Assembly (NCBI GenBank): GCA_001603115.1 | Contig: LVBG01000026.1 | Location: 1 to 44,519, forward strand | Length of the DNA stretch: 44,519 bases | From: Spirochaetales bacterium Spiro_05 | GTDB taxonomy: Bacteria > Spirochaetota > Spirochaetia > Sphaerochaetales > Sphaerochaetaceae | Direction of reading: 5' to 3' | Shown here: piece by piece, positions 29,123-32,379 of the stretch | Layout: the number at the start of each line of letters is the position of its first letter | How positions within the stretch are numbered: position 1 is the first letter of the stretch | The notes under the pieces: generated by a model | What the model was told of the DNA's origin: nothing | The model's database searches: none | What the model saw: the letters and a program-made list of their open reading frames with translations, nothing else | Program-made: the position numbers and the translations under genes

Positions 29123-29838
29123 GAAAGCCGGTCATCGGCATTGCCGGAACCTATGAACAGGCTCCGGCAGGCTCTGCCTTTCCCACCCTGCGGAGAATTT
29201 TCACCAACGAGGGATACAGCACCTGCCTCCAAGAGGCGGGTGCTCTGGTCATTCTGCTTCCCCCCACCACTATCAATATCGAGCAACTGGTGCAACTCTG
29301 CGATGGGGTGCTCTTTGCCGGTGGAGCGGATATCGACCCTTCGTGCTATAAGCAAGAAAGATCCCCTCTTTGTGGACCTTCCGACCTTGATACCGATACA
29401 TTTCACCTTGCGCTCTATCATCAGGCACGACAAGCAGGAAAGCCCATACTGGGCATTTGCCGTGGTATGCAACTGATCAACGTGGCAGAGGGAGGAACGC
29501 TGTATCAGGACTATAAAGAGCAAGAAGGCTGGAATATTCACCACCCCGATCTGAAGCATTGGAACTGCCCAAGCCACCCGGTACACATCAGGCAAGACAG
29601 CATACTTTTCTCCATTCTCAAGTCAACAGAACGGGAAGTGAACAGTCTGCATCACCAGCTGGTGGACACCCCTTCTGATGCCTTAAAAATCACAGCTAAT
29701 GTATCTGATGGTTCCATTGAGGCCTTTGAGGCTATCGATGGCCCTTGGTGCGTAGGAGTGCAATGGCATCCGGAAACCTTGGGAATCTCCATGGCTCCTC
29801 TCTTTGAGGCCTTTGCCAGAGAGGCTTCCTTACGGTGA
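29119..29838 (+). CDS. Class-I glutamine amidotransferase-like hydrolase (PuuD-like)
   Basis: 239 residues. Catalytic Cys in ILGICRGMQLINV and His/Glu in VGVQWHPE define the class-I amidotransferase triad; LFAGGADIDPSCY and NSLHHQLVDTP are typical of the gamma-glutamyl-GABA hydrolase / PuuD subgroup. It probably hydrolyses a gamma-glutamyl amide. The ATG at 29119 overlaps the pepD stop (ATGA); the longer frame back to 29059 lies inside pepD. Its 3' end overlaps the convergent lipoprotein gene by 9 nt. Confidence 0.9.
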   Translation: MRKPVIGIAGTYEQAPAGSAFPTLRRIFTNEGYSTCLQEAGALVILLPPTTINIEQLVQLCDGVLFAGGADIDPSCYKQERSPLCGPSDLDTDTFHLALYHQARQAGKPILGICRGMQLINVAEGGTLYQDYKEQEGWNIHHPDLKHWNCPSHPVHIRQDSILFSILKSTEREVNSLHHQLVDTPSDALKITANVSDGSIEAFEAIDGPWCVGVQWHPETLGISMAPLFEAFAREASLR

Positions 29839-32379
29839 CCAAGCCGACCCAGCTTTGTAGCCGACTATGGTCTGGGCATGGTTTATGTTTTTACTGAAAT
29901 TGGCAATATCTTCTTGAGCAACCCCCGTAAGGTCTACCACGTCCTCACCGTTCATCCACGGATCTTCGGTACCAAAAAAGCTTATGGCGTCGATGCCAGT
30001 AGCCAGACAATACCCACTGGCAAGCAGTTGTTGCACGATATCTATCTTTGCCGGGTCATCAAGTACAATGAGCCCCCCCGAGTTCTCCTCAAAGTAGCTG
30101 CCATCACTTTGTCTGCCCCGGTATTGTGCTGCTTCCCGGAACGCCTCTTCCGTTGGCCAGGGATACTCATACCCTTCGAGGCGTTCATCGGGATACTCAT
30201 CATATCCAGTGGTTTTCCAAGTACTCGACCCTATGCGGTTCAATACGGATTGAAGCGCAGCTATTGATGCCCCTGGAGCTTGAGATACCAGGTGGTAACT
30301 GAAATCCGGGCTCATGATCTTATCCTGATACTCGACAGATGGATAGCCGGAACCTGTGGTGCTTTTCACCCACTGTGCACCACTGAGATCCCACCCATGT
30401 TCACGTGCCTCATTGTACGTGTGGATGTAGTAAGCGTTCGTGAAGGCAGCACAGCTTCCCTTCGCCCCCTGGTTGCCTATCGGGGGGAAGTAGGGACTTT
30501 GGGTCCAGTCAACTTCTGAGGGAAGATCACCTGGATACCAGCGGGTACCCACGTCCAAGGTTCTCATGCTCCTCAGTTCAGCTTCAGTGGGAGGGACCAA
30601 TCCCCCTAAGCTTGCGTTGCTCTGACTTCTGCTTCTGCTAGCAGGAGCCTGCAAGGCAAGGATGGACTGGATCTCCTCCTCACTCAGTGAACGTTGGGCA
30701 GGAAGTGACTGAGCCATGGTCCTGCTTCGGCTCTGCGTGCGAAGCAGGGGAAGATGTGAAGGATCCAAATCTCTGCTTGTGCTGATCAGAAAGGTTTTGT
30801 TCTCTCCTGCTGCCACTGTAGGAGAAGAGCCTTCCAGAGGGAACCCAAGGATTTGTGCTGCATCCGCAGGATCAAGCGAATAGTCGTCGTACAACTCCAC
30901 AGAGAAAGAAGAAAGGGTTGCTGTTTCGGTTCCCATTCTGTTATCGATCCTGATGAAGATGTCATTGGTGGCAATATAGGGGGCAAACTCACTGATGTCC
31001 AAGATCATCTTCGTATCTGGGAAGGGATTGGGCCCTCCTGCCAGGACAGGGGCATCATTTTTGATATCAGAGACTGATTGAAGCCGTTTTACCATGAGGG
31101 GATGGCTCGGCTCTCCCACTCCGATGCTGATCAGGCAGGTCTCACGATTTTCGTGAGCCACATCAAAAGAAGCAAGCAAAAAGGGCTCATATACGGTTTG
31201 GCTGGTGTTCAATGAGTAATAAATTTTCAATTTCAGGGCAACCGCGGCATCAAGGGGAAGGTAGTAGGCCCCATCAGGGATATGTTCCCAGTTGCCCTCT
31301 CCCCATGAATTAACAATCTTGAAGGCACCATCCGTCGTGTCTGCATCGCTTTCCGTGAAGAAAACCGAATCGACATACTGTGATGCTGTCCAGTTGTTCT
31401 GGGTGAGCAGCTCTGACTCCTCTGTTCTGAGATGGTACCCTATATACTGAAACCCTTCCAAAGTGCTGACTTGATATGTTAACTGGGGAACACCTTCCAC
31501 TGTCTTGATAAGACCCAAAAGCCAAATCACATCGGTCGGCCATGAGCCATCTTGGGAAGCACCGTAGGTCTGGTTGGGCTGTAGGGTAAAATCGATGGTC
31601 TCCATTGAAAGGAAGAGAACATCCTCTTCCGTGATGTAGGGATCTGATGATGCATAGAAATCAAGAAAGACCGAACCTGAAAAGGCAGCGTTACCTCGAT
31701 TGGTGATGGTGGGAATGGCGATGGTTGCGTTTCCATCTCGGATGTCGGCATCAAAAATCAGCGCGCTGAAATCATCGATCACCCCTTCATGTAAGCGAGC
31801 ATGCGCAACGTAGCAGTTCCCAGCTACCAGATCGGGCCCATCGGAGCCCAGGATCTCTCCAAGAAAGAACCTATCATCCTGTACCAGCTTATGTCTGACA
31901 TGAACCGTATTGCCTACTGATAGCGAAGGGAGGGATTGGGAGAGTCCTGTGCAAGCTTGCCAGTTGTTCCCGTCGTCTGTGCTGTACTCATACTGGTCAG
32001 AGACATGATAGAGCCTTCGGTCGACCACTGAAAGGGTTGGGGAGAAGTGGGGAGTACCCCGCACGATGTAGTTCCAGCTTTTTCGTTGCACAACCTTATC
32101 ACTGCTGTCGATTGCAATGGCTTGCACCTGTGTTGTCTTGGTGAGGGTGATGGGAGTTGTGTAGCGAGGGCTGTCCAAGGTAGGAAGTGACCCGTCGGTC
32201 GTGTAATGGATCGCCTTGGAATGGTTGCTTGAAAGGGTGATTGCGATTGGCTGCAGATAAGTGCCCGCTTGCCGGGAACTTTGCAGCACTCCCGGCGGTG
32301 AGTACAGCAGATCACAGGCAATGAAGAGCAGTGTACAGATAGAGACAATGAGAATCTTGATCGTCCGAGCGTTTTGCAT
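29830..32379 (-). CDS. Large lipoprotein with permuted papain-family (C1) peptidase motifs
   Basis: 849 residues. A lipoprotein signal (LLFIAC, Cys22) is followed by a chitobiase/CHB_HEX-type beta domain (about 28-109) and a CARDB-like beta region (about 180-300). Next comes FKIVNSWGEG, the papain Asn motif, with N357, and a beta domain typical of the tail of bacterial C1 proteins. A Ser/Arg-rich linker (about 545-600) leads to the papain N-terminal part, PIGNQGAKGSCAAF, with oxyanion Gln637 and nucleophile Cys643, and finally NHAQTIVGY with His834, 16 residues before the stop. All catalytic residues are present but the order is Asn - Gln/Cys - His instead of Gln/Cys - His - Asn. AGGGG precedes the ATG. 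Confidence 0.75.
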   Translation of the reverse strand: MQNARTIKILIVSICTLLFIACDLLYSPPGVLQSSRQAGTYLQPIAITLSSNHSKAIHYTTDGSLPTLDSPRYTTPITLTKTTQVQAIAIDSSDKVVQRKSWNYIVRGTPHFSPTLSVVDRRLYHVSDQYEYSTDDGNNWQACTGLSQSLPSLSVGNTVHVRHKLVQDDRFFLGEILGSDGPDLVAGNCYVAHARLHEGVIDDFSALIFDADIRDGNATIAIPTITNRGNAAFSGSVFLDFYASSDPYITEEDVLFLSMETIDFTLQPNQTYGASQDGSWPTDVIWLLGLIKTVEGVPQLTYQVSTLEGFQYIGYHLRTEESELLTQNNWTASQYVDSVFFTESDADTTDGAFKIVNSWGEGNWEHIPDGAYYLPLDAAVALKLKIYYSLNTSQTVYEPFLLASFDVAHENRETCLISIGVGEPSHPLMVKRLQSVSDIKNDAPVLAGGPNPFPDTKMILDISEFAPYIATNDIFIRIDNRMGTETATLSSFSVELYDDYSLDPADAAQILGFPLEGSSPTVAAGENKTFLISTSRDLDPSHLPLLRTQSRSRTMAQSLPAQRSLSEEEIQSILALQAPASRSRSQSNASLGGLVPPTEAELRSMRTLDVGTRWYPGDLPSEVDWTQSPYFPPIGNQGAKGSCAAFTNAYYIHTYNEAREHGWDLSGAQWVKSTTGSGYPSVEYQDKIMSPDFSYHLVSQAPGASIAALQSVLNRIGSSTWKTTGYDEYPDERLEGYEYPWPTEEAFREAAQYRGRQSDGSYFEENSGGLIVLDDPAKIDIVQQLLASGYCLATGIDAISFFGTEDPWMNGEDVVDLTGVAQEDIANFSKNINHAQTIVGYKAGSAWSP

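Follow-up and report, generated by a model that had tools for sequence, protein, structure and literature searches.

A predicted lipid-anchored papain-family peptidase of a Sphaerochaetaceae spirochaete with the halves of its catalytic unit in rotated order

Papain-family (C1) peptidases carry their catalytic residues in the chain order Gln/Cys, His, and then the Asn of an NSWG motif, and in this textbook fold the order is treated as fixed. We know of no described natural permutant of family C1, and none was found among the matches listed in an open-access literature collection that lacks most subscription papers. Here, we describe a gene on contig LVBG01000026.1 of Spirochaetales bacterium Spiro_05 (the window, i.e., the whole 44,519-base stretch analyzed, which is the entire contig C24 of a 2.32-Mb assembly of 69 contigs estimated to be 68.6% complete). 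Its product is most probably (roughly 0.85) a lipid-anchored cysteine peptidase of family C1, as predicted from its sequence, with a catalytic unit that is a natural circular permutant.

Other papain-like folds have been cut elsewhere. In the available sections of PMC10318531 and PMC3142127, the permutations of C92, LRAT, and PPPDE/C97 move the Cys helix: in these permuted NlpC/P60-type (C92, LRAT) and PPPDE enzymes, likewise circularly permuted papain-like folds, the Cys lies near the C terminus, behind the strands bearing the His and the polar residue. In the window protein, in contrast, Cys and His stand together in the C-terminal half and the Asn is separated from them, the family is C1, and the cut is not theirs; no C1 enzyme cut between His and Asn is described in those sections. 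PMC10318531, in the same sections, also presents OTU-like deubiquitinases (cluster V) with a permuted third-residue strand, LupA being a circular permutant, a precedent that limits the novelty of our finding; these have deubiquitinase-type folds with reversed strands, without the C1 NSWG and beta-rich domain, and are set apart here by description only. A survey of the papain family (PMC10380794) places Spirochaetes among the holders, and the available part of its main text holds no word starting with "permut," while CIRPIN (PMC12667903) names papain only in a reference.

The gene is a single unbroken open reading frame (ORF) of 849 codons on the minus strand, with its first base at 32379 and its stop ending at 29830. 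Within it, IVNSWGEG begins at residue 355 (Asn357), NQGAKGSCAAF at residue 636 (Gln637 and Cys643), and NHAQTIVGY at residue 833 (His834), close to the stop, and the N terminus has the signal peptide and lipobox Cys of a bacterial lipoprotein (LLFIAC, Cys22). The uninterrupted frame and the four residues had been proposed at these places by a first-pass annotation of this DNA, which also called the product a lipoprotein and proved accurate. Shuffling the protein 20,000 times produced a bare NSWG 68 times and the Cys and His motifs never, counts that concern the motifs singly and not their arrangement. Chance motifs are ruled out by these counts together with the conservation of the arrangement and of the four residues in relatives; by our own weighing, the reality of the arrangement rests more on this conservation than on the chance figure. 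The parts of the gene are as follows.

29830..32379, minus strand: whole ORF, predicted permuted C1 lipoprotein peptidase, 849 amino acids (aa) (ORF and homologues)
32314..32379, minus strand: lipoprotein signal peptide, residues 1 to 22, lipobox LLFIAC with Cys22 (sequence motif)
32101..32271, minus strand: CHB_HEX_C_1 domain, residues 37 to 93 (Pfam PF13290, E 1.2e-16)
31345..31839, minus strand: putative CARDB-like region, residues 181 to 345 (the aligned homologue L015 has CARDB, E 5.2e-9; Pfam gives no CARDB match in the window protein itself)
31195..31344, minus strand: counterpart of the C-terminal strands of papain (GAFKIVNSWG...DGAYYLP), residues 346 to 395, here on the N-terminal side (alignments)
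31309..31311, minus strand: codon of Asn357, predicted catalytic Asn of NSWG (invariant in 23/23)
30790..31194, minus strand: beta-rich domain after NSWG, residues 396 to 530 (as in L067, with the alignment reaching about residue 495; both low-confidence models have strands here)
30610..30789, minus strand: variable Ser/Arg-rich joining segment, residues 531 to 590 (outside the second L067 block)
30547..30609, minus strand: pro-like segment (GGLVPPTEAEL), residues 591 to 611 (N-terminal to the Cys in canonical L067)
29833..30546, minus strand: Cys/His half, residues 612 to 849, ending just past the His strand (profile matches)
30469..30471, minus strand: codon of Gln637, predicted oxyanion-hole Gln (motif, invariance)
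30451..30453, minus strand: codon of Cys643, predicted nucleophile (motif, invariance)
29878..29880, minus strand: codon of His834 (motif, invariance)

The beta-rich domain has no Pfam family listed (one scan up to E 5, another up to E 0.05), and the idea that it might be a lectin-like domain of the Cwp84 type was not borne out. A NCBIfam scan gave a single result, a weak and unrelated match. Several more frames similar to the CHB_HEX-type N-terminal domain are clustered elsewhere in the window's genome (G000:C47:51580-59883, L002 to L007).

One argument for a permutation comes from a homologue that keeps the papain order. A scan of viral contigs with a profile of the Cys/His half (profile A3) returned L067 (IMGVR_UViG_3300032020_000788), a 1,528-aa ORF in which GTGLRPPTEEEW, SCTCW, GHEVTVVGY, and GAFKIANSWG follow each other and lead into the same beta-rich domain. 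It thus shares the GTGLRPPTEEEW segment, Cys, His, NSWG, and beta-rich domain with the permuted proteins and differs from them by its papain order and by the lack of a lipobox in a regular-expression scan. BLASTP of L067 against the nine proteins of alignment A1 gave two strong segments in swapped order for all nine, e.g., residues 58 to 318 of L067 to 468 to 734 of L015 (E 8e-41) and 331 to 490 to 264 to 429 (E 4e-17). The approximately 12 residues between the two segments (L067 319-330) mark the opened loop, and L015 430-467 is the new joint. On its contig, the L067 gene, which we take to encode a large secreted canonical C1 protein, adjoins what is presumably a terminase large-subunit gene.

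Profile scores point the same way. With its pieces rejoined in papain order, the window protein scores 26.2 bits against Peptidase_C1 (cut-off, 20.7), compared with 18.8 bits in natural order, 20.1 for the Cys/His half alone, and 19.5 and 19.3 for two control joins with other pieces of the protein (two of the nine prepared were scored); only the rotated join, of the joins tried, exceeds the cut-off. Two permuted proteins exceed it unrotated, namely, the second of two copies in genome G248 (22.4 bits) and that of G147 (27.4 bits), which match profile positions 1 to 177 and 1 to 175 of 220, respectively, near their C-terminal ends, with the NSWG lying far upstream. Against the PDB, a broader Cys/His profile matches cathepsin K (residues 2 to 33 and 121 to 174; whole-sequence E 3.1e-6), and the NSWG-plus-beta profile has a single match at E 5 or better, to residues 251 to 280 near the C-terminal end of the cysteine protease 3ois, a match that involves the NSWG part and not the beta-rich domain. 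The best match of the rotated profile A8 is 6a0n (Lpg2622; E 1.4e-4), over a single unbroken stretch that includes both the His and the NSW parts, and 3ois is matched as well (E 0.0019). The window protein has the Gln, Cys, His, and Asn of family C1 (PF00112) in C1-type motifs that match the corresponding parts of solved enzymes (cathepsin K, 3ois), whereas its Asn-strand part precedes the Cys part and its unrotated score stays below the Pfam cut-off. Since the chain order is not that of C1, we file it as a permuted variant and not as an ordinary member. Circular permutation, as the first-pass annotation had proposed, therefore draws support at the sequence level from the swapped blocks of L067, the score of the rotated join, and the profile positions in G248 and G147. 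That annotation had also seen that the beta domain normally following NSWG now precedes the Cys half, which is confirmed, and the pro-like segment before the Cys has moved with it.

Within the class sample, the rotated order holds wherever the NSWG half was matched. From a larger group, we took an even sample of 297 class genomes, with the window's own among them, and searched it with profile A3 and with profile A2, which covers the NSWG and beta half (threshold, E 1e-5). A3 matches 33 of the 297 genomes and A2 matches 18. Each of the 20 places matched by A2 in this sample has A3 downstream of it in the same orientation, and at 19 of them both share one open frame; the search for homologues with the same order, as suggested by the first-pass annotation, thus found the NSWG half first in 20/20. 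The twentieth place (L084, G216:C68) is a broken copy with its Cys/His half split over two frames. An alignment of 23 permuted proteins, which represent 21 genomes and seven families, leaves out the broken L084 and includes the near-copies L011 and L012. Asn357, Gln637, Cys643, and His834 are invariant in all 23, and the A3 match stops 0 to 8 residues short of the frame end. At E 1e-5, no canonical-order copy with the same beta-rich domain was found within the class, and a wider search of the phylum with the NSWG-plus-beta profile returned only the window's genome (G000) and G147 (2/296).

A regular-expression scan detected a lipobox-like motif in 21 of the 23 permuted proteins; of the two without a call, L071 has LSAGC with no ATG found before it, and the N terminus of L074 is missing. 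The modules between the anchor and the catalytic unit differ among the seven proteins scanned with Pfam, with CHB_HEX_C_1 in the window protein and L071, CARDB in L015 and L080, and a Listeria-Bacteroides repeat in L083. No N-terminal domain is listed by Pfam for the two G248 proteins, in which the NSWG Asn lies at about residue 42 and about residue 80 from the first Met. These two genes (L081, G248:C47:30000-37500, frames at 1896 and 3658) stand in tandem about 80 bp apart; their products are 57.5% identical over 518 residues and have only a short linker from the lipobox to the NSWG strand. At the other extreme, the 1343-aa frame of L080 (G110:C86) places seven Big_2 stretches and CARDB before the permuted peptidase, a long-stalk version.

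Outside the class, most of the relatives inspected follow the papain order. Profile A3 matched 45 places in a search of the phylum, and of the 18 newly returned loci inspected, all from outside the class, 14 carry NSWG downstream of the His motif; the remaining four gave no match to NSWG itself, with two of these showing NSWS after the His. A2 before A3 was found in none of the 18. L090, from another class of the phylum and found via the Cys/His profile, is in canonical order with a weaker match to the NSWG-plus-beta profile and CHB_HEX_C_1 behind it, and the order is also canonical in L107, L108/L109, and a Persicobacter plasmid protein. Relatives from the viral, plasmid, and phage collections were canonical or partial, with two Leptospira and two cyanobacterial plasmid hits among the matches listed. 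Of 31 canonical relatives, six have a lipobox-like motif, which is doubtful in four of them (the Cys lies within an ordinary-looking signal core), and for seven of the 31 no signal was found. Compared with the 21/23 of the permuted proteins, this suggests, without proof, that rotation and lipid anchoring go together; as the permuted rows may all go back to a single event in evolution, the association counts as one coincidence.

Closer to the window, 8 of the 59 relatives searched (the window's own genome not counted) hold a match at E 1e-10. Seven are genus genomes with near-full-length, collinear copies at 49 to 86% identity, and the eighth (G040, of another family) is collinear at 38% identity across residues 300 to 849. 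Relative to L016, L009, and L010, the ratio of nonsynonymous to synonymous substitution rates (dN/dS) is 0.09 to 0.33 in each of seven segments, indicating that purifying selection acts on both halves. A scan of the genome-contig collection had a single result, L016, which is the contig of G008. The identical two genes flank the permuted gene in all seven genus genomes; we take the first to be of the flavodiiron type and the second to encode a C26-type peptidase. The former was found in 25 of 26 genus genomes: it adjoins the permuted gene in eight, stands with the C26-type gene nearby and no permuted gene detected in 11 (L118, L119, L121 to L125, L130 to L132, and L134), and has neither gene within the stretch examined in six. 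Since both neighbors are close with no permuted gene detected between them in those 11 genomes, the peptidase gene appears accessory at this site.

These relatives bear directly on whether the arrangement is an assembly artefact, i.e., parts of two genes or contigs joined in the wrong order, a worry that the first-pass annotation had raised and that the window, being the whole contig of an incomplete assembly, might feed. The rotated order is collinear in the eight other genomes, in five of them on contigs of 2.4 to 3.5 Mb (G001, G002, G017, G019, and G040), with the same neighbors on both sides in seven; the worry is thereby dispelled, and we give misassembly a negligible chance. Several results nevertheless weigh against our reading of a permuted C1 unit. 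AlphaFold models of residues 331 to 849 and 341 to 849, built from alignments of 4 and 8 rows, reached a mean predicted local distance difference test (pLDDT) of 33.8 and 36.1, respectively, with the catalytic part below 50 and ten-residue blocks of at least 60 only at 401-430, 471-490, and 521-530, all in the beta-rich part. Foldseek with the second model gave no match at E 0.001 (353 up to E 10) and no papain among the best 50 of the 353; lipase-, C2-, and kinase-type matches were weak and not used. The pLDDT was too low to judge the closure of the triad, so the prediction over residues ~330 to 849 that the first-pass annotation had called for ran twice and speaks neither for nor against the four residues coming together. 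In addition, of the seven of 23 permuted proteins scanned unrotated with Pfam, only the two cited above pass the Peptidase_C1 cut-off, the first G248 copy (18.2 bits) and the window protein (15.8 bits over residues 619 to 671) falling below it and no match being listed for L015, L071, and L080. Two of the five members of A8 match Peptidase_C1 at E 1, and canonical L067 has no Pfam match at all, Peptidase_C1 included, which argues that the subfamily as a whole is divergent. The cathepsin K His stretch (121-174) is weak taken alone, and the 3ois match is itself weak (E 0.023; E 0.82 with a narrower profile). The low Pfam score of the window protein, together with the NSYG that replaces NSWG in one aligned row, would also suit a pseudo-enzyme or binding lipoprotein that keeps the papain-like halves as a scaffold and has lost catalysis; the invariance of Gln, Cys, His, and Asn in 23/23 and the selection on both halves make this improbable. 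We likewise give low odds to a domain swap, a pairing across molecules that the first-pass annotation had also raised; the active form would then be a dimer or polymer on the membrane, with each Cys/His half taking its NSWG segment from a partner. The beta-rich domain and variable linker between the two parts would permit such an exchange, whereas the opened loop of L067 is so short (about 12 residues) that the new ends should lie close and closure in cis needs no long reach.

The origin of the rotation was addressed with a tree of 21 permuted and 24 canonical rows (45 in all, set in one order), which places all the permuted rows on one side of a single branch, with which 84% of 200 bootstrap trees agree. 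L067 is the closest canonical row, next to the permuted rows at 96/100, and L090 and L083 form long branches; the tree omits L012 (near-copy of L011), L080 (missed by the Cys pattern), the broken L084, canonical L037, L040, L085, L094, L097, L099, and L102 (motif patterns failed), and L107, L108, and L110. This is compatible with one origin of the permuted rows and no proof of it, and the weaker support for a clade of permuted rows without L067 (83/50) speaks against it. Presumably, the rotation arose once, through tandem duplication and trimming. Permutation by duplication is described in the available part of PMC3320104; that the joint still contains both the pro-like segment and the beta-rich domain agrees with this route. 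The G248 pair indicates that such genes do duplicate in tandem, the pair itself not being an intermediate. Fission and refusion of half genes would yield the same end product, and the fact that no duplicated intermediate was seen in the class and phylum profile searches tells against duplication and in favor of this second route. It is possible but, in our view, the less likely of the two, since both segments are retained at the new joint as duplication plus trimming predicts and tandem copies do occur, neither point being decisive.

Altogether, the order, its conservation, the homology to a canonical unit, and purifying selection can be read from the sequences themselves, and we propose the following model of the permuted peptidase. 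The ancestral order would have been that of L067, i.e., pro-segment, Cys part, His strand, Asn (NSWG) strand, and beta-rich domain. The chain would have opened at the loop between the His and Asn strands, and the variable linker would now connect the former ends, namely, the beta-rich domain and the pro-segment. The new N terminus would carry the lipid anchor and spacer domains leading into the NSWG strand, and the new C terminus would lie just past the His strand. The NSWG strand would probably fold back beside the His strand within the same molecule, the two pairing as a hairpin with its tip cut open, and the permutant would be an active enzyme: an exported lipoprotein tethered by Cys22 and presenting a papain-type peptidase. 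More tentatively, and with considerable doubt, the permutation may be functional in that an N-terminally anchored enzyme would stay membrane-bound through the cleavage of its pro-segment, a reading that the lipobox counts given above would fit. If the pro-segment were N-terminal, its removal would release the enzyme, and an internal pro-like segment would avoid this loss of the anchor. Cleavage at the Ser/Arg-rich linker would then give a two-chain enzyme, with the tethered NSWG/beta half holding the Cys/His half.

Our study sheds light on what the sequences indicate is a real and conserved variant of a known enzyme family with a rotated order. Profiles built on the canonical order miss such genes: of the eight permuted genes in the 26 genus genomes, a Peptidase_C1 search at E 0.01 recovered none. 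A natural permutant that is conserved and has its His and Asn on opposite sides of the cut would mean that opening the chain within the active-site sheet is tolerated by the C1 fold. It would also allow direct tests of how these enzymes fold, how their zymogens are controlled, and how permutations originate.

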